From: Armillaria gallica
Taxonomy: Eukaryota > Basidiomycota > Agaricomycetes > Agaricales > Physalacriaceae
Length of the DNA: 64,000 nucleotides
NCBI GenBank assembly: GCA_037576215.1
Contig: JBANDB010000004.1
Coordinates: forward strand, 558,001 to 622,000
Reading direction: 5' to 3'
How positions within the stretch are numbered: the stretch's first letter is position 1; every line of letters begins with the position of its first letter. A model generated the notes under the pieces. It saw nothing but the letters and a program-made list of their open reading frames with translations, was not told the origin of the DNA and did no database searches. Position numbers and translations under genes: made by a program. Shown in pieces: positions 2,110 through 59,110 of this stretch.

Positions 2110-3665
2110 GGGGTGCACACCATACCGTATATGGTGTACAGCCATACGACTATGATCTCAATTGGTCATGGAACTATCTGTATACTGTACCATGAGGATC
2201 ACTCACTGAAGCTGTTGGTGTCAGTATGGGTATGGTATGGCTGTTGACAGCTGTTTACAACCATATATTACAGTGTAAAATAAATAAATTTTGTGTATAA
2301 AAATAAAACAGTTACCTATCTAAAGCTTTCTTAATGGCCACACATTCATGCCATAGACAATGCTTCACAAGCACAAGGACACAAATCATATCCAGCTTGA
2401 GGCTAGCATACCTTGGAGAGATACAGTCATCACCCGGTCTGTTGTACAGGGAAATTTCTGGTGGATTTCAAAGCCTCCCTCATCCACCTTTCATCCAAAA
2501 AAGTATGTCATAATGTCAATGATATATTTAAGAGTGTACATTATAAGTTTGGGGTGATTCTATAATGATTTGATAGCGCGGTGAATTTTTTCAATGTAAG
2601 TCCAAATTTACCGGTTACCGGGACCTCTGTACACCGGCTTCCGTACGCCAAATTTGGATGACCTTTTCCCGATTTGGATTAATTTCTCACGGCTCTGGAG
2701 AGTGGTTCGGGCTCGTTTTGCCCATAGCACCACAACGAGCAGTCTCTGGCCCATGGTTCCGCAGGAGAAATATGTCCTTATAGCTAGTAGAACAATTTCA
2801 AATACCAATTTATGCTACCCAGCACCCTCACTCTTGTCTAATCCTGTATTTGTGTTTTTCCGAAATTCATATCAGTCACTATTGATTTTTTCCTGACCGA
2901 TACAAGTCTCCTTAACTTCATTCTTGTTGGTGATATGATGGCCTATATTGTACTCTGTAAGATAAAAATAAAATTGGAACCATAACATAGCAGCAAGAGA
3001 AGTTATATTCAAATGTATAAAGGAATAGTGGTGTACAAAAGACCGGGTGATGACTGTAGTGAGAAAATGTGAAAAAAGAGACCAAAATGTCAGTAAGACT
3101 GGTTGGTCATTATTATAGTGAGGCTGGCTGATGATTCAGTTCAAATAACAAACTGTGTGGTTCAGACAAGGAGTCAAGTGGGTGGAAAGAGCATTGATTA
3201 TCACTAGAGGTCCATGAGGGCAATCTGAGTACAAGGTATAATAGAACCAACTATGAGGAGTTAGTTTAGATGGGCTGAGAATTAGAGAGAATGAAAAATC
3301 CACCTTCACAACCAATATTACTTTTGAACTGGGTCAAGACTATCCAAGAATGAACCAATAGTCAGCAGCTATGACCATGTACACAAACTGACAAGGTGAG
3401 AACAGCCTAACTGTGACTTGAAAGTGAAAGAGAAAGACAGGTTGAAATGACATGCCAGAGCTATGAAACCGGAATGGTGCTATTTTATTTTTCTAAAAAT
3501 GGAGCTGTATTATGCCATTACATGGCCATCTCACAAGCACTGTGACAGCTATGGAATATCAGTATACTGTGCTGTACAGATGCCCACCAGGGTGTGTTTG
3601 GTGTCAGTCCATCTTCCATATAACGGTTACTGATAACTATACAATATGGTGATGGTGTGCAGCCC
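2110..3665. mobile_element. Putative TA-flanked non-autonomous element, interrupted by a second element
   Basis: The left end reads GGGGTGCACACCAT after TA (2108-2109). The right end, reverse-complemented, reads GGGCTGCACACCAT and is followed by TA (3666-3667). That gives 14-bp inverted ends with one mismatch and TA on both sides, as in Tc1/mariner/pogo target duplications. No transposase is visible inside. The 633-bp element at 2424-3056 sits within it, so the element without its insert would be about 0.9 kb. The short ends make this moderate evidence. Confidence 0.5.
2424..3056. mobile_element. 633-bp mariner-like non-autonomous element, TA target duplication
   Basis: Inverted ends of about 25 bp with one mismatch: the left starts TA|CAGTCATCACCCGGTCT and the right ends AGACCGGGTGATGACTG|TA. 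TA lies on both sides (2422-2423, 3057-3058). The interior has more CpG than its surroundings, mostly at 2600-2770. It holds a short minus-strand open frame (2608-2808) that ends in KPVYRGPGNR and matches no transposase domain I know. Confidence 0.75.
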
Positions 3666-5140
3666 TACTTTGGATCTGAACAATTCTGGGTCCATCTCTC
3701 CTGGAACAAGATATTATCTGAATAACATACTATTCATTGGGTGGCAGGTCCTTTCAGAGTGAAGAGGTAATTAAATGATTATTCAAACCAGAAGCATCAC
3801 CTCATGTATTAAATACATGACTTATTTTAAAAAAAGAATTTGGGATTGCTTCCGAGAGAATCAGTGATCTAGTGACCAAATCTCTGCAAAGCAAAGGGCA
3901 ATGTTCCTTACAAACTTCTCCAGCATCATGATGGAAACTGTGTAGTTTGTCCCATGAGTTCATTTTCAGAAAATATCTTATGCTGGCATGGGATGCCAGT
4001 GTATACAGACATGATTCTATACATCAAGAATTATAGCTGAATGTTTATTTACATTATATGTGAACATTGAGATTCTCATTTCCATGAACCAAAGGACAAA
4101 CACTTTCCATCAGAATACTGATACTCTGTAAAATAACATCAAGATCCATAATAGAAAGACATCTGAGGTGCACACTTCATTGATATCAAGAGTTTTCCAT
4201 TCAATATGCTGGGTATCCTCATCCAAATTTGAACAAAAAAGAATTCAGAAAAGGAAGTTTAGTCAGTGGTTCCTATACTATATTCATCTTTACAGCCACA
4301 GCATTTAGTGAAATTGTCAGCTCATCTATCTCACAACAACAGTGAAATTTTTCCTCTATTTTGAAGGAAATAAAGTTCTTTTTAGTAGAAATTTAAATTA
4401 TTCATACATAGATACTGCAATGTAAATTGAATAAATCTATTTGACTTCTCCAGGCATTAATTACATAAGCATCTCCCCTTTAGGCACAGGTGTGATTGCA
4501 GAGGTGTTATTTTGATGCAGCTCCCCTGGACCTCTTAGATACCATCAGAGTGCATGCTATCATCTATAGTCCACTGGTGCCGCTTCTCCACATCTTTTGT
4601 TGGCTCTACTCTGTATGAGTGATGACCAAGAATAAATATCCTTCTGTCTCTCTCTCTGCTGTTGAATGGGCCATTGTTTTGGCAAGCTTCTTTTGCTTGC
4701 TATTTTAGACAGCGACAAAAGGTTTGTGTTTGAGAAAATCTCAGACACAAATATCATGGGAAACACTAGCATAACAGGGTTTACATAATGATGTCATTGG
4801 CTTCTCGGTTTGCCATGTTCTGCCACATCTTGCTCTGTTTTGTTTGCTCTCCATCTCATGGTACCGATAATTGAACTTATATATCCTTGGCCTCTTATGG
4901 CCTTTTTGCATAATGCAGTGGTGGACAATGATAAGTGATACACCAGGATAAAGAATTTTTGGTGCATAATCCAATGTGGTGGCTCTTACCCTGCATTGAT
5001 AATGAGCTAGGACTCTGGATTTGATTTGAACAATGTGAAGGATAGATGGGCTGTCTGTGGCACTTGATGTATCATGACTATTTTTTGTCTCTATGGCACT
5101 GGAGAGTCAGATATACATTGTGAGTAAAGCTTGCATTATT
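3666..5140. other. AT-rich stretch, no gene recognised
   Basis: Nothing supportable was seen except a weak similarity between about 3720-3870 and 26030-26170 (shared run around TATTAAATACA and flanks), which may be two old copies of one dispersed repeat. Confidence 0.5.
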
Positions 5141-5242
5141 GCTCAAGTATCAGTTCAATCAAGAGATTAATTAGAAGCTAGAATTCAGATTTTTTGGTGC
5201 TCTAGCTTCTAATTAATCTCTTGATTGAACTGATACTTGAGC
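5141..5242. repeat. Perfect 42-bp inverted repeat with 18-bp loop
   Basis: The left arm 5141-5182 and the right arm 5201-5242 are exact reverse complements over all 42 bases, separated by 5183-5200. A transcript of either strand would form a long perfect hairpin. No target duplication marks it as an ordinary MITE. It lies just upstream of the MULE coding remains, but I cannot show that it belongs to them. Confidence 0.95.
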
Positions 5243-5606
5243 AACTAGAGCATGATGTTGCAAGAATAGACCAGTATGTCATGAATTTGTCAGAATATAG
5301 ATGGCTCTAGTCAGTAGATGTCATGGAATAAAAGGTTGAAAATGTCTCTCTTGCTTTGTATCATCTCTCTGGCTGCGCCTGCACTATCCCTATCACTCAA
5401 ATCACTAGTTATGAGTTGTGTGTCTTCCCCTACTGCCAATAGCAAAACAAAGGATTGTACTTCAACTTCCTATGGTTATAGCCCAGGCCTAAGCTTAGAT
5501 GTTGCTTTTATGCAGGCTGAAGATCTGGTTTATGAAGATATGCATACAGAAGGTATGCTTAATTCCTTGTGAGCTCAATATGTAACCTGATCCATCATAT
5601 ACAGAC

Positions 5607-18639: not shown

Positions 18640-19079
18640 CCGCAGTACAGACGACAAATCAATGAGCCTCAGATTGTTGTAGTTCGAGCACGGGAGGGAA
18701 CGAAAAGAGCAACTCGTTTAGACCTAGTATGTCGACATGGTGGTAAACGGTAAAGAAAGAAAAGCTACGGGTACGGTAAATAACGGGTTCGGAGCCGGTT
18801 GATTCCGACGGCTCGTACAGCCACCAGTAACTCCAATACAGATTCCATGAAGGGCTGAAGGAGTTCAGTAATGACAGTTGTTTGCGAATGACGGAAGTTT
18901 GCGTTCGCTATCTGGTTTAACTACAGCAGGCAGCGTCACTTCGAAGGAATCTCCGATGCTTAGAGATCTACCACAGTGCCAGGCCCGGAGAAATGCAGTT
19001 AGCTGGTATACTCTGCGTCCCTGCCTTGCCATCACCGCACGCGTAACCTTCGCTCTCCAACTCTCCCTTCCTTTCATCT
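18640..19079. other. Spacer, no gene recognised
   Basis: CpG-richer DNA between kinase copy B and block X copy 3. Overlapping open frames on both strands show no recognised motif. Confidence 0.4.
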
Positions 19080-20370: not shown

Positions 20371-20529
20371 TTATTCAGTTGACAGAAGACTGAAAGATTC
20401 ATATGATCTGCATACTTGATTTGTGCCCATGTTGCGACCCTTTTCCTCTTCAAGACACTCGGCCAGGACACAGACAATCTCTTTCATATCCCTCTTCCAA
20501 CGTTTCAGATCATCTTGTGTTCCATTGTC
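20371..20529 (-). pseudogene. 3' end of the DUF6535 gene, stranded outside the inverted segment
   Basis: The minus strand encodes ADNGTQDDLKRWKRDMKEIV and then CVLAECLEEEKGRN before the frame ends near 20371. It stops exactly at the 9-bp flank of the left 1,111-bp element. Its frame fits on to the frame ending CYTLHLA at 24385-24405 if the flanks are rejoined. This is the C-terminal tail of the gene whose body is now on the plus strand between the two elements. Confidence 0.75.
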
Positions 20530-20538
20530 GGCCGGATG
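20530..20538 (+). repeat. Outer 9-bp flank of left element (half of a split target duplication)
   Basis: GGCCGGATG. Its partner is the inner flank of the right element (24397-24405), which reads GGCCAGATG on the minus strand. The only difference is at a CpG. Confidence 0.8.
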
Positions 20539-21649
20539 GGGCCAAGAGAATTCTGTGTTTGACCCTTGCGTGCATGCGTTCAACTGCGTTCGCCTGCGTT
20601 TGCGTAAGTTCAACTTGCGTGCGCTTGTGCCCTGATTGATGCGTTTAGATGCGTGGTCATCTGATAGCTAGTGTCATTTCAATAATACGTCATAATTATG
20701 TTTTCTGTTGAAATTAAACTTACTTGTCCGGATTTCCTGGAGATATCTCCATGACTTATTATGACTCACTAATGTGGTGGAATGGTCTGGAAAGGCTATA
20801 AATGCATGCATGTTAGTAAGTTCTAGTATCACAATGAATATAGTACCCTCTGGTGTTGAAGTACTGATGCTGTTCTCGATTTTGAGTGAATCAGGCATCT
20901 CTAAAATTAACGCAAAGACTCACGCATCTCAAAAATAAGTCACACATGCGTCCAAACATTGAACGCAAGCGTTCAGATAGCGCACGCATGCGTTTCTTTT
21001 CAAAACGCATGCATCCGAGATTAAATGCAGATGTGTGACAGTGTTGTGACAAATCTGCATTCGGTGCATTTGATGCGTTCAAGTCTGAGTTGAACTAGTT
21101 GACTTATGATCGCTTCAATTTATCCCACCCATAATTGCTTCTAGTCACTCATTCTAGGCAGTTATCTTATTTTAATGATGTATTCTAGTCATGCATAGCC
21201 AGGTTGCCGTCAAGTCATCGTTTTTGAGCCAGGATTTGGCTCAGTTTCTTCTTAGTTTCTTCAACTTGTTCCTCAACAAAATGGTAATGGTGCCATGGTT
21301 TTTACTGATGGTTATCATACCTCATGACCACTAACACTCTCAAAACCTCCAAATTCTCTTACATTTAAAATACCAGCTCGAACATTAATGGACTCAGCTG
21401 TACAGAGACTCTACCATGACAAAGAAAGTTAATTATGGCTGGTGTCGATGTCATACTTGGTATAAATCTAATAAGCAGTAAGTCTTACTTACACTGTAGC
21501 TAATAAAATAATTTAACAGGTGTTTGTAAGCCCAAACGCACAAGATGGCCAACAAACGCATCCATGTCACGCTCACGCAGATGTGACAAACGCATGCGTG
21601 AAAATGCAAATGCACGCATGCAAATGCAAATGCAGAATTCTATGTGCCC
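20539..21649 (+). mobile_element. 1,111-bp non-autonomous transposon, left copy
   Basis: It begins GGGCCAAGAGAATTCTGTG and ends CAGAATTCTATGTGCCC, so it has short inverted ends around the palindrome AGAATTCT, with subterminal regions dense in ATGCGT/ACGCAT words. Its inverted near-identical partner at 24406-25516 has exactly the same length. Open frames inside (for example 20891-21082 on the minus strand) exist in both copies only because the copies are nearly identical; no transposase motif is seen. 9-bp target duplications suggest a Mutator-like (MULE) affiliation, by inference only. Confidence 0.9.
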
Positions 21650-21658
21650 AACTGCCTC
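21650..21658 (+). repeat. Inner 9-bp flank of left element
   Basis: AACTGCCTC. Its exact reverse complement GAGGCAGTT is the outer flank of the right element (25517-25525). The pair is one target duplication split by inversion. Confidence 0.85.
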
Positions 21659-22000
21659 GACCTTTGGGACCCCATCTGCTCTGGCAGAGAAAGGGAAGAA
21701 TTCATCCTCGCCTGTTGAAAATTATGTGCGACGGCCAATCAGGAGAAGATAGCCTTTCATTTTTGGTCTACCAGGGACTGCACCTGTGAGAGTGCCTACT
21801 GGTATGTGTGCTGCTCTAAGCATTACCACTTCCCTCATGAATCTATTCTAGGCGACTCTCGAGTGTATCCACCGAGTCAACCTTTTGAAGAAGCAGGGCC
21901 AACGTCCAGTGTTTGGCGAGCATATTTGGATGAAAGCCTGATTTACCACACTGATATGCTTGAAAAGCAGAGAGGACAAACGAATGTTCTCCTCGTTTTT

Positions 22001-22055
22001 GTGAGTGCGTTCAGTCAAATGCATGAAACATCACTTGAATCTTTTCCCTTTGTAG
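22001..22055 (+). other. Probable 55-bp intron in the DUF6535 gene
   Basis: GTGAGT donor and TTGTAG acceptor. It joins TNVLLVF to AGLFLVIVTAF, a junction typical of DUF6535 proteins. Confidence 0.75.
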
Positions 22056-24396
22056 GCGGGACTATTTTTGGTGATCGTCACTGCCTTCATCGTACAATCT
22101 TCAGCCAACCTTTGGCCAGATTTTTAGAAATTGTTTGCACTTTTGCTGTTCGATCAGATCAATATACAACGCGTGCTAGCTAACAGCACATCCCTTGACC
22201 GCATCACCACATCTGGTGCTGATCCTACAGCACCCTTTTCTCCAAAACCTTTAGACTCGTGGATAAATGGGCTTTGGTTTGCGAGTCTTACCCTCAGTCT
22301 TGCAGCTGCATTCTTTGCCATCATTGTGGATGAGTGGTATTACCATTATCTCTCGCCTGTCGCTGGAGACCCCCAAGTTGGCATCCATACTCGACATTTC
22401 CGTTACAAAGGTCTCATCGATTGGCACTTCGGCACATTCATTGGCTTCTTACCCCTCATGTTACGCCCATCCCTTGGCTTGTTTTTCTTCAGCCTTGTGT
22501 TATATCTCATATCTCAGCAGAAGAAGATCGCGATCACCTTAGGAATATTATTCTTACCACTTTTTCTCGCCATTGACCCGATCAACATATTGGGCATAAA
22601 ATACCCAGAGTTGCCATACAAAACGTGCTTGAATGCACGTTTATACACTTCATCATATGGGTACTTCAACAACTCCCCATGTTCATTACCCAGATTCTCT
22701 CAATACTACTCGATATTTATCTTGAGATAGAAACATTCGAGGATCTTGAGACATATACTGCGGGAAAATCATACATCGAAAACGAAGTTGATGCACTTCT
22801 TTGGCTGTACACAGGATCATTGACTTCCTCCACCCGTCATCTGGTTATACATGCTCTTGCTGGATTGCCTCCAGACCGCATCACATGTGCTAAGGAGGTT
22901 TTCAGTCCATACTGGGCTGAAATACGAGATGAGAAAGAAAGAATTTTGATGGATTGTATGGTGCTGGCCCGGGATGAGTACTCTTGGTGGATTCCAAAAG
23001 ATATCCCCAATATCGACCACAGGATCAAGCCACTCCTTCAGTTGGAGATTCTATTTCCTGAATTATGCCAGAATCTTCCATCTGGAATCTTCGGAGAGCA
23101 TAATCTGGATTTCTCAAACAAGCTTTCCAATATGTTGTCAATAACTCTGTCTTCCATCGACGATGCACATATTCAGAGGCCTGTTGACCAGAAGCAAGTC
23201 GTCATAAATGCCTTACTAGCAGACAGGGATGTTCACCATCCTGTTGTCTGGAAGAACTTATTAGACCACTATCTGGACAAAGAAAAGTTGTTTCATGACC
23301 TGGGGGATGCTCTCACCATCGAAATGTGTCTCAGCTTGGTAAAAAGCATATATCTCCCCGAACGCAGTCCTCCCAAATCATGCAGCTGCACTTTGGCGTA
23401 TGCCTTAGTAACATATTGTAAACCAGAAATTCTCAAAGGTCTTCTCTTATTCTTTGATACATTTGATCCACACAAGGACACAGTTGATTATGAGCGAAGA
23501 CTCTTGCTCGCATTGTACGCACCTTGGTGCCTGACTCTACCCCATCAGGTGTTCATTTGGGCCAACACTACCCATTCCATCACGATTCTACAATTACCAA
23601 GTACCAGCTGTTGCGCGTCGCATTATATTCAATAGGCAAACATATTCCTTATCATCCCAACGATCTTCCTTAAACAGTGGCAGACCAATGTTTTCCAGGC
23701 AATACTCTCTTACATCATGTCTGATTTATTTACTGGGAGTTCTTTGAGTAGTCGGGAGGATGTAGAATTCAAGGAACTCTTTTGGACCTGCCGTTCTTAT
23801 GCTCTTGTATGCATTGCTTCGCTTATGGATGGAAGCCCTGAGGACTGCATCGTTGAACCTCCTGCAGAATGGGCCATGAAGCCTTTGTTTCTGAATATTC
23901 CTTGAGTCATCCATGATGAAAGTGTAGCAGATGAACCCTGTTTGTCCACTGTTCAAGCCTTCCCTGATCTTCCTCAACACTTTGACTCTATAGTTGGCAT
24001 AGTTTCCTTTCTATTAGGACAAGCATTCTCTAGAGGGATCTTCAATGCATATGAAGCTTTTGAAGACAAAGGCAGTTTGCATTATATTGCAGAGAACAGT
24101 AGCCTTCACCCAGAGCTCTTTGAAGGACTATGCGGTTATATCACTGGGCTCTCTAAAGCCAAGGCAAGGAAACTTCCAGATATTCAATCGAACCAGTCTC
24201 TTGGCCGGCATATTCAAGTCTCCATCAGGCACATGTCATTCATTGCATTTGTGCGAGCATCGCCCGCAGTGGCACCTCACCATGCCCTATGTTATCCTCC
24301 TTGGCTTCAATTGCTCCTGATTATGATGAATGGTTTAACATTTTGGAAATCTTATACTCCCCAGATCACGGATATTCTGTTCAGTGCTACACACTC

Positions 24397-24405
24397 CATC
24401 TGGCC
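24397..24405 (-). repeat. Inner 9-bp flank of right element
   Basis: CATCTGGCC on plus, GGCCAGATG on minus; pairs with 20530-20538. Confidence 0.8.
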
Positions 24406-25516
24406 AGGCACATAGAATTCTGCATTTGCGTTTGCATGCGTGCATTTGCATTTTCATGCATGCGTTTGTCACATCTGCGTGAGCGTGACATGGATGCGTT
24501 TGTTGGCCATCTTGTGCGTTTGGGCTTACAAACACCTGTTAAATTATTTTATTAGCTACAGTGTAAGTAAGACTTACTGCTTATTAGATTTATACCAAGT
24601 ATGACATCGACACCAGCCATAATTAACTTTCTTTGTCATGGTAGAGTCTCTGTACAGCTGAGTCCATTAATGTTCGAGCTGGTATTTTAAATGTAAGAGA
24701 ATTTGGAGGTTTTGAGAGTGTTAGTGGTCATGAGGTATGATAACCATCAGTAAAAACCATGGCACCATTACCATTTTGTTGAGGAACAAGTTGAAGAAAC
24801 TAAGAAGAAACTGAGCCAAATCCTGGCTCAAAAACGATGACTTGACGGCAACCTGGCTATGCATGACTAGAATACATCATTAAAATAAGATAACTGCCTA
24901 GAATGAGTGACTAGAAGCAATTATGGGTGGGATAAATTGAAGCGATCATAAGTCAACTAGTTCAACTCAGACTTGAACGCATCAAATGCACCGAATGCAG
25001 ATTTGTCACAACACTGTCACACATCTGCATTTAATCTCGGATGCATGCGTTTTGAAAAGAAACGCATGCGTGCGCTATCTGAACGCTTGCGTTCAATGTT
25101 TGGACGCATGTGTGACTTATTTTTGAGATGCGTGAGTCTTTGCGTTAATTTTAGAGATGCCTGATTCACTCAAAATCGAGAACAGCATCAGTACTTCAAC
25201 ACCAGAGGGTACTATATTCATTGTGATACTAGAACTTACTAACATGCATGCATTTATAGCCTTTCCAGACCATTCCACCACATTAGTGAGTCATAATAAG
25301 TCATGGAGATATTTCTAGGAAATCCGGACAAGTAAGTTTAATTTCAACAGAAAACATAATTACGACATATTATTGAAATGACACTAGCTATCAGATGACC
25401 ACGCATCTAAACGCATCAATCAGGGCACAAGCGCACACAAGTTGAACTTACGCAAACGCAGGCGAATGCAGTTGAATGCATGCATGCAAGGGTCAAACAC
25501 AGAATTCTCTTGGCCC
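24406..25516 (-). mobile_element. 1,111-bp non-autonomous transposon, right copy (inverted)
   Basis: Reverse-complement partner of 20539-21649 and equal in length. Many of the differences noted by eye are CG in one copy against TG or CA in the other. Its TIR-like ends read AGGCACATAGAATTCTGC (inner) and CAGAATTCTCTTGGCCC (outer). Confidence 0.9.
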
Positions 25517-25525
25517 GAGGCAGTT
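25517..25525 (+). repeat. Outer 9-bp flank of right element
   Basis: GAGGCAGTT, the exact reverse complement of the left element's inner flank (21650-21658). Confidence 0.85.
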
Positions 25526-25733
25526 CAGACTCGTTTTTGGATTTTCTGGCGCCTAGTGGGAAGGTGCGCACTGCCTCGTCAGTGCTTTGGAACCCTTCGT
25601 CGGTGGACTTGGGATACAGTAGATTGCCATCTCGAATGCCATCCAAGGGCGTATGGTGTGCCATCCAGAGCGTTATCAGGGAGGAAAGAAAGAAAATACT
25701 CCGAGACAACAAGAACAAGGTGATTGGTAGCAA
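25526..25733 (-). pseudogene. 5' part of the DUF6535 gene, stranded outside the inverted segment
   Basis: The minus-strand frame carries MAHHTPLDGIRDGNLLYP (a possible start Met near 25664), then STDEGFQSTDEAVRTFPLGA and RKSKNESELPR up to the element border. Rejoined to 21650 in the original orientation, the frame stays open (LPR followed by PLGPHLLWQ). This is a disordered N-terminal region of the kind that precedes DUF6535. The true start may be further upstream on the minus strand. Confidence 0.6.
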
Positions 25734-48149: not shown

Positions 48150-49795
48150 AGGCCTAAGACTTCCATAGCAATGGAAACACCAACTCGGAATGAGATTGGG
48201 TAATTAATGTAGTAGCATGGCAATCAAGGTGATCATGTGTGTGAGTGGTTCGGGGCACCTCCATGCAGTAAATCAATTCCTCTATATGCAAGTATACACT
48301 GTGACTTTAAGTCTGCGAAGTAGTACTGCTTCGTAGTCGAGTACTAGATGCTAAGGCTATAAGCTGGTAGGGTTCTCTTGAAGTGAGAGGGAACGGAAGT
48401 GGGTATGATGTGAATACCATGAATCTGTATGCAAAAATGCGAGACGAGACTAGAAAATGTCGCTCTATGGTAATTGGAGTGGGGTGAATGATGGAGAATA
48501 GACTGAATGGTCAGCAATAGTCTATGAGTGAACGAGGCAATGAGAAAACGTGGTTGGAGACAGCGTGTGGCAAGAGAAAATGTTGAACTATGAAACTGGC
48601 AATGGTACTGGTCCTATACAATGCAATGGTGCTGAGTCAATGTCGAAACTTGTCTGGTACTGAAATGATCCTATCCTATGTCAAACTAACCTTCAAGTCC
48701 ACTTGAGGGACTGATACTATACAAAAACTGGCTGAAACTGGTCCTAAGTCTGCTCGGAGACTACCCAAGTGGGCAATGATAATGATGGTGAAAGGGAAAC
48801 TGTAAAAACTCCAATGGTGTGAAAGTGAAATGATGATGGCCTATAAAAGATAACGGGGGGCAAGGTATGGCATGGTGATCACATATTGGCACAATGTGAG
48901 TGTGCACCAATAGTGTTAAGAGCAAAGAGCGCATAGCAAAGGACTCTTCACAGTTAAAAACCATGGAATAACTCTGGTGAGCTCAAGAGTCAATGTGCAA
49001 TCGAGAATATGCTGGGGTAAATGGTATATTGCTATAGAACAGTGAATAGACATGGTTTACTGGAGATAGACTAGTGCGTGATGATAATTGATGTAGTCTG
49101 GGGTCAACTAGGGATGAACTGCCCTTGAACTACATTTTCTAGCTAGTTTTTATACTACAAGTATGAATTTATAAATAGAGTAAATATGCGAGACTTAGTA
49201 AGGCTGTAAGGCCTTGGCTTTGTAAAAATCGGAGGAAACATATGGTACTTCATCTTCTAAAGTAACAGCAACTCATCGACATTGCCATGTATGGATGTGA
49301 ACTGTATGGGGTCATTGAGCGATGCACAGATTGTTAGGTGCTGTTTAGCTGCGGATTACTTGAGTGATAGTTGTCGTGCTGAGGAGTACGCATGGGGCAA
49401 CATTTTCTTGAGGCCTTGGCAAAGTAACAGCCTTAGTAAACACAGTCTGTAGTTGCTGTAGCTGCAATTGCCATAGCTGGGAGGGTACTCGCACCAATCA
49501 CGTCATTTTCATTAAGTGATCAATGAGTGCATCAACTAGGTGCTTCTGAGTGATGCATCAATTCCATATTGGGATAATTGTCGATTGAAGGTGCCTTGCC
49601 ATGATGAAGTACAGCAATTATCATGCATGGCAAGATGGGATGGATAACAAAGTGCATGAGGAGTGGTTGCCATAGGATAAAAGTGGTATCAGTGTGTGTG
49701 CAATCATTGGTTTGCTGAAAGTCCGTTGAAGGGACCGTAATGTTAATTAGCAGGTAAAATCCATGAATTCTAAGCATACAGAGCCTGGAGGCTCA
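48150..49795. repeat. Long dispersed repeat R, copy 1 (about 1.65 kb)
   Basis: Direct-orientation match to 57540-59110. Shared landmarks are GACTTCCATRGCAATGG, GCACCTCCATGCAGT, ACACTGTGACTTT, CTAGCTAGTTTTTATACTAC, CTTAGTAAGGCTGTAAG and CATACAGAGCCTGGAGGCTC. The middle has diverged. The right end, read on the minus strand, still encodes DEPPGSV, the C-terminal end of the TE gene found intact beside copy 2. So this is probably the 3' region of a transposon. Confidence 0.75.
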
Positions 49796-57539: not shown

Positions 57540-59110
57540 TGATGAACCTAGACTTCCATGGCAATGGCAACACCCAAAACTCAGAGAGAGCTTAGGCAAT
57601 TAATGTGGTAGCACAGTAATCAAGGCATTGTGTGTGAGTGGTTGGTTTGGTGCACCTCCATGCAGTCAATTCCTCTAGAACACAAGATACACTGTGACTT
57701 TTCAGTCAGTGAAGTAGTACTCTTGGTCAATGAGTACTAGTAGACATTGGCTGTAAGCTAGGAGGGATCTTGATAAACGAGATAGGAAGGAATCTGGTAT
57801 GACATGAATACCAAGAAACCGTGATAGAAACCATTAAAATGGTCTAGAAAATGTGGGGATGGGCTAAAGAGCACAAAAATAGCTCTAGAAACCGTGGCAA
57901 TGCTCTAGAAAATGTAGCAATGGACTAGAAAATGTGGGGATGGACTAGAAAACATGTCCAGATGGTGTACTGTGATGCCAAGTCGAAACAATGGCAATAA
58001 ATGTGCGGAAACTGCCTTGAAACTGGAAGAAAATGTAGCAACTGCAGTGCTGAGTGGGGTGTTGCAGCAATAGATGCACAGGTAATGACAAGGGTGATCC
58101 TATGGAGAACAATGCTGAACTGGGCCTACACGGAGGCAATACTGAACTGGGTAATGAAGACGATGGCGACATAGAAGGTGAAGACATAAAACAATCCTAT
58201 GTGGTGAAGGTGAAGCGATATTGTGGCATTAAAAGACAAAAGCAAGTTATTGATGTGAGATTCTATGTATTGGTGCAATATACAAAGTGAACCAACAACA
58301 TTAAAAGTAAAGCAAGCAGTGAGAGATAACTTGGAGTAACTGTAGCTGACTGGAAATGCCATAATCTTATCAGCTGGGTAAGAACTACTCTAAAAATGTG
58401 GTTTCTAGCTAGTTTTTATACTACAAGTATGGTTTTATAACTAGAATATTCATTGGAGCCTTAGTAAGGCTGTAAGTCCTTGGCTTTGTAATAGCCATAG
58501 TAAACATATGGATTCTATGGTTCTAAAGTAACAGCAACTTCTTGACATTGCTGTGTATAGATAAGAGCCTTGTGGTTTTATGGTGCAATGAGTGGATCAT
58601 GAGGTGCTGTTTAGCTGTGGAATATTGAGCTGCAGTTGCTGTGCTGAGGTGTACACTTGTGGCAATGGTAATTCGAGGTCTTGGCAGTGTAACAGCCTTA
58701 GTTAACATGGTCTGTAGTTGCCATGGCTGTAATTATCGTAGCTGGAAGAGTATTCACATCAATCACATCATTTCATTAATGATTGATAGGCACATCAACT
58801 ACATGCTTCTGCGTGATGTGGCAACTCTATATTGGGATGATTGGTGATCAATGGTGCCTTGCTGTGATGGGGTATGGTAATTATGATGTGCAGCAAGCTG
58901 GGAAGGATAATGGAGCATTGAAGGAGTATAGTCGTCATGGTTTTAGGATTGTATCTGTGTGTGGGTGGCATATACTGCGAAAGTCTGTGGTATTATTGAC
59001 TGTTGGCAGTATTATGGAGTGTGTGGGGATTATAATGGTGTTGTTTTGAAGATATTAGGTGATGAATGGGTAAATCCATGAATTCTGAGCGTACAGAGCC
59101 TGGAGGCTCA
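57540..59110. repeat. Long dispersed repeat R, copy 2 (about 1.57 kb)
   Basis: Direct repeat of 48150-49795. Its right end overlaps the 3' end of the minus-strand gene at 58993-60723 (DEPPGSVRSEFMDL), so the repeat includes the end of that gene and a long non-coding tail. Confidence 0.75.
57844..57958. repeat. 20-bp tandem repeat CTAGAAAATGTGG..., about 5-6 units
   Basis: CTAGAAA words occur at 57844, 57885, 57905, 57925 and 57945: exact 20-bp spacing for the last four, and one degenerate unit between the first two. The matching place in repeat copy 1 (about 48450) has a single such word, so the array grew in this copy. Confidence 0.8.

Follow-up and report, generated by a model that had tools for sequence, protein, structure and literature searches.

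Evidence for inversion of a 2.76-kb DUF6535-type gene body between two facing transposon copies in an Armillaria-like fungus

The window considered here is a stretch of 64,000 bp (C4:558001-622000) of an 86-Mb assembly in 28 contigs, which was also the genome searched. It contains two copies of a short transposon, separated by 2.76 kb, both of which lie inside one gene; the interior between them encodes a DUF6535-type protein (PF20153, Pfam E = 2.9e-29), the Pfam entry DUF6535 being without a stated function. The features of the locus, with the two 9-bp target duplications termed site a and site b, are as follows.

20371..20529, minus strand: C-terminal coding piece (...NGTQDDLKRWKRDMKEIV...STE, then stop), severed from the gene body by the inversion; assigned by translation, by paralogs and by its position after the interior part in proteins P0005 and P0007
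20530..20538, plus strand: site a, outer target duplication copy GGCCGGATG; a related single 9-mer is at the equivalent position in four element-free paralogs
20539..21649, plus strand: left copy of the 1,111-bp element, with imperfect terminal inverted repeats and no open reading frame of at least 80 aa wholly inside
20743..21597, plus strand: stretch of the left copy (element positions 205-1059) without differences from the right copy, read as a gene-conversion tract
21650..21658, plus strand: site b, inner target duplication copy AACTGCCTC
21659..24396, plus strand: inverted interior, a DUF6535-type gene body (PF20153) with an in-frame TAG at 22125-22127; assigned by Pfam and by paralog orientation
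24397..24405, minus strand: site a, inner copy, GGCCAGATG as read on minus
24406..25516, minus strand: right copy of the 1,111-bp element
24458..25312, minus strand: right-copy counterpart of that identical tract (element positions 205-1059)
25517..25525, minus strand: site b, outer copy, AACTGCCTC as read on minus
25526..25664, minus strand: predicted exon 1 start (MAHHTPLDGIRDGN..., 49 codons, the count running into site b), which remains on minus; assigned by upstream homology to paralog L065

The two element copies are in inverted orientation and align with 11 mismatches and no gaps, which bears out the original prediction of this locus as regards coordinates, equal lengths of 1,111 bp and facing arrangement. 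The 9-mers flanking the left copy are GGCCGGATG and AACTGCCTC, and those flanking the right copy, in the minus-strand reading, are AACTGCCTC and GGCCAGATG. Each duplication is thus split across both copies, as had been proposed, with a match of 9/9 at site b and 8/9 at site a. The sole mismatch at site a is a transition within a CpG; the duplications of all six other family copies matching at 8/9 likewise differ by a transition. Within the window AACTGCCTC occurs three times (at 21650, 25517 and 41776), and GGCC[A/G]GATG at the two borders only.

The element is a transposon with terminal inverted repeats; it is non-autonomous and duplicates 9 bp of its target on insertion. A DNA search for it gave 41 matches; of 58 candidates the best 40 were scored, so the family counts given here are lower bounds. 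In the loci examined there are 34 copies with both ends, 32 of them outside the present pair. When the two flanks of each of these 32 are compared, 17 match at 9/9, six at 8/9, one at 7/9, one at 6/9 and seven at 1-3/9, i.e. 23 of 32 carry their own duplication at 8-9/9; one of the poorly matching copies (L030) would match if its end were shifted by one base, and its mismatch is probably due to a changed end base. The original prediction had raised the concern that the flanking 9-mers might be common chance words around the family. They are not: when the 5' flank of each of the 34 two-ended copies was compared with the 3' flank of all others, matches of at least 8/9 were found only within this pair and within a palindromic pair on C16 that shares its flanks. 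The exchanged duplications are therefore locus-specific among the copies examined, and no further pair with exchanged duplications is present among the 34.

Mutator-like elements (MULEs) make 9-bp target duplications. The present element resembles them and their non-autonomous derivatives in the length of its duplication (perfect in 17 of the 32 other copies) and in having terminal inverted repeats, but these repeats are short and imperfect (23 bp, 78%) and no transposase is linked to its ends, so that it is only a candidate member of the superfamily. The genome has three MULE-domain matches, and element-like ends are absent around all three (3.1-3.3 kb around each), as they are at four KDZ loci examined out of 169 KDZ matches; many of those matches to the KDZ transposase family that are listed are partial or have stop codons. 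A 4,364-bp element (L064, C20:1032028-1036391) shares the terminal repeats and is flanked by an exact 9-bp duplication, AAGGGGTTA; its similarity to the window element is confined to the end regions and a few short motifs. No Pfam match marking it as an autonomous partner was found for the two frames submitted, out of the six that reach 90 aa. The element could be a longer relative, or else a carrier of captured gene pieces. A further candidate, of 3.6 kb, is predicted at C19:1526460-1530013 from paired end matches.

The original order of the locus can be read from paralogs. At the left border, the left flank and the interior match adjacent stretches in several of them, with the interior reversed and a gap of 9-10 bp. 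The original prediction had suggested re-inverting the interior and comparing it with relatives; with the interior turned back in silico and the elements removed, the alignment to element-free paralogs is unbroken across the left border in all three loci tried (L044, L045 and L046). When the left junction is aligned in five paralogous DUF6535-type loci, all five lack the element and all have the same order. A single GGTGGRATG is present at site a in four of them (L045, L046, L058 and L059), L044 being diverged at the 9-mer; swapped flanks in element-free outgroups, the case that the original prediction had named as counting against it, were thus not seen. In proteins from two named species, P0005 (Armillaria solidipes) and P0007 (A. 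fumosa), the 3' part of the interior and the C-terminal piece of the left flank are in one protein, the final stretch up to site a, where the frame changes in the window, having been matched by eye.

For the right border, the alignment of L065 to window positions 26020-25584, upstream of the gene, scores 72, whereas the best of 300 shuffles reached 32. Weaker scores of 34 and 33 were obtained for the right flank against L045 and L046 (0 and 1 of 300 shuffles as good), which are closely related to each other and so are not independent. L066 gave no signal at the right junction (179 of 300 shuffles as good), the stretch examined being without the gene start (head score 21). In a continuous local alignment, L065 scores 341 against the re-inverted right join and 241 against the present join; conservation in the paralogs does not extend to the 9-mer of site b. 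Since L058 and L065 derive from one C4 unit (C4:3405272-3409300), both original borders are visible in a single element-free unit.

The locus thus has facing element copies at the two borders of an inversion, with the target duplications exchanged between them, and we hold with high confidence that a 2.76-kb DUF6535-type gene body is inverted between two facing transposon copies in an Armillaria-like fungus. Of the 19 protein matches to the interior, nine carry a source name, in each case Armillaria or Desarmillaria. That there is no inversion, i.e. that the flanks match by chance or that it is the paralogs that are rearranged, has next to no probability. Nothing was found in its favour other than the 8/9 rather than 9/9 match at site a, and it is refuted by the element-free paralogs; against it are the chance probabilities (ca. 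4e-6 for a 9/9 match and ca. 1e-4 for 8/9 or better) and the agreeing order in the five element-free left-border loci and the proteins of the two named species. The original prediction had also ascribed the flip to crossover between the inverted copies. The inversion itself is strongly supported, by paralogs at both borders and the two species' proteins at the left, while crossover becomes one of two routes that leave the same footprint.

As a consequence of the inversion the gene is now in three pieces: the predicted first 49 codons on the minus strand at the right, the body on the plus strand between the elements, and the last ca. 50 codons on the minus strand at the left. The match of a further protein, P0012, to the exon 1 start is weak (21 residues, E 0.008). 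The in-frame TAG at 22125-22127 in the body is CAG in two paralogs; with the inversion, it means that this gene copy is disrupted by more than one change. DUF6535-type genes have undergone a large local expansion on C4 (e.g. at 64-532 kb and 3.4 Mb), on which many of the 60 interior matches fall, with identities of 64-80%; some of these matches are parts of a single gene.

The two copies are sisters, i.e. each other's closest relatives, as judged from comparison of the pair with 27 other rows of the family alignment. They are split from the other 27 with support of 99 for the ends alone, 100 for the middle and 100 for the whole element; eight bases are common to both and absent from all other rows among 28 compared, and the next-best identity to the pair is at most 95% among the 40 candidates scored. 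A candidate reading in which the copies belong to independent lineages, ca. 5% apart at the ends, was overturned by the ends-only tree and the site table. The youngest other sisters of the family (L010, L012 and L013) have 6-10 differences and are dispersed over three different contigs; against that background, a lone sister at a distance of 2.76 kb stands out.

The distribution of the 11 differences is uneven, with eight at element positions 1-204, none at 205-1059 and three at 1060-1111, i.e. an identical middle of 855 bp as against 11 differences in the 256 bp of the ends (4%; Fisher 8e-8). The middle of the left copy is 4-7% different from those of the 11 nearest other copies. In 200,000 simulations, with sites weighted by their variability, an identical run of at least 855 bp with 11 differences never arose; of the 435 row pairs, the palindromic C16 pair alone exceeds that length. 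CpG bias was considered as the cause of the identical middle and ruled out: differences are present at 8 of 45 CpG-context sites in the ends and at none of 73 in the middle, and the figures for all other sites are 3 of 211 and 0 of 782, respectively. Most of the end differences (8 or 9 of 11, by majority polarity and with the terminal base included) are new in the right copy, the terminal base of which (24406) is unlike that of the left copy and of the 25 other rows with a base there; at 9 of the 11 sites the left copy has G or C and the right A or T. The simplest reading of these comparisons is that the middle was homogenised by gene conversion at a time when changes had already accumulated in the right copy.

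A collapsed repeat, too, would look identical in the middle and different at the ends, and the joins fall in 1.1-kb near-identical inverted repeats. It might be, then, that the locus is an assembly artefact, in which the interior between two ordinary insertions, each with matching duplications, was misoriented via the repeats and the repeat middles were collapsed. We consider this improbable, as the 86 Mb are assembled in 28 contigs, no Ns are present in the window or in the 66 loci examined, and L010, L012 and L013, at more than 99% identity, retain 6-8 differences in the middle, so collapse is not general.

The footprint is explained equally well by one duplicative transposition and by two insertions followed by crossover. 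We lean, slightly and tentatively, to an inferred route in which the inversion arose by a single aberrant duplicative transposition, with gene conversion later. One element would have been resident at site a, within the final coding portion of the gene. The two ends of that element, taken from different sister chromatids, would have inserted together at site b, in exon 1, by hybrid-element insertion or an equivalent duplicative insertion. This single step would have made the second, inverted copy, flipped the intervening DNA and split both duplications across the copies, the product of a hybrid element being, by our derivation, x E t' ... x' E' t. The right copy would later have gathered mutations, and its middle would have been overwritten from, or equalised with, that of the left copy. 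The end differences fit coherent over crossed-over copies with a likelihood ratio of 7, 49 or 343, depending on the treatment of site 1087, a crude rate estimate from few sites; the Fisher p for the crossed arrangement is correspondingly 0.15, 0.07 or 0.02. It is the non-chimeric copies together with the lone local sister that give the slight lean to one step. That the sister copies differ mostly by changes new in the right copy is consistent with identity at birth, which is not exclusive to hybrid insertion.

The other route, which has a real though somewhat smaller chance of being correct, is that two separate insertions in opposite orientation took place in the same gene, each with its own duplication, and that a homologous crossover then flipped the interior. 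The exchanged duplications and the inverted order follow from it directly, and ectopic recombination has been shown for Galileo in Drosophila (PMC2775673). Close inverted pairs on C20 and C1 are only 94% and 95% alike, respectively, so nearby insertions are not rare in the family; the C20 copies group weakly in the tree (support 63-65) and are ungrouped in the ends-only tree. Crossover does, by contrast, need a second insertion of the same lineage 2.76 kb away, and no third member is present among the 40 scored copies; moreover, with no chimeric ends on the few available sites, the flip would have to predate the divergence of the copies.

Several points weigh against the single-step route. The comparison for chimerism uses 11 sites, just three of them at the 3' end, and one choice of polarity gives p = 0.15; in sister copies that were still fresh, moreover, chimerism would leave no trace. 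Had a crossover taken place shortly after a recent insertion nearby, the resulting sequence would be the same, and this is nearly as good an explanation. The copies appear to have exchanged sequence, given 0 differences in the middle as against 11 in the ends, so this locus apparently does undergo the recombination that the crossover route needs. A transposase for the element family was not identified, and broad literature searches found no hybrid insertion in it.

Hybrid element insertion is known from P elements. Together with alternative transposition it likewise predicts two identical inverted copies, an inversion and exchanged duplications in one event; the present case differs from known hybrid-insertion cases in that the element is of a different family and no reciprocal product is seen. 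Work on maize Ac/Ds (PMC3744419, PMC8225341, PMC3470690 and PMC9910405) concerns this kind of event. The general phenomenon of a transposon-flanked inversion with exchanged duplications is already known from flies, in that Galileo generated inversion 2z3 of Drosophila buzzatii (Delprat et al. 2009, PMC2775673). According to that paper, the outcomes of ectopic recombination and hybrid-element insertion are strikingly similar and are told apart by chimerism of the copies, the chimeric Galileo copies being taken by the authors as proof of ectopic recombination. The copies in the window, unlike those of Galileo as there described, are sisters without detectable chimerism; the duplication is of 9 rather than 7 bp, the segment is 2.76 kb within one gene, and the reference is provided by paralogs rather than by uninverted chromosomes of the species. 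A fungal inversion with exchanged duplications was not found in the literature searched, which is not to imply that none has been published.

The locus is a compact case, in that the two borders, the original order and the later homogenised tract are all legible in one genome, and it is a good test bed for separating inversions made by crossover from those made by transposition, which share flanks. It also illustrates how a gene can be broken into three parts, distributed over both strands, by an element that is short and non-autonomous.

Elsewhere in the genome, the palindromic pair on C16 (L033 positions 2123-4911; C16:140622-143410) consists of two inverted family copies whose sole difference is one single-base gap. 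Both have the same 20-bp flanks and duplication, ATTAAAATA, pointing to a palindromic duplication that spans the element and its surroundings. When 63 genome-wide matches to the 5' end were paired, all four pairs with 5' ends less than 5 kb apart (in the window and on C20, C1 and C16) were inverted; two direct pairs have 5' ends 5.8 and 6.0 kb apart, with gaps of 4.7 and 5.0 kb.

Other repeats are present in the window. A dispersed repeat of ca. 170 bp at 18672-18842 has at least 32 matches on many contigs at 88-99% identity, among the best 40 of 106 candidates, which were scored, and a perfect 44-bp inverted repeat with an 18-bp loop is at 5139-5244. Direct repeats at 49104-49508 and 58370-58773, with 74-79% identity and a spacing of ca. 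9,266 bp, suggest an old tandem duplication.

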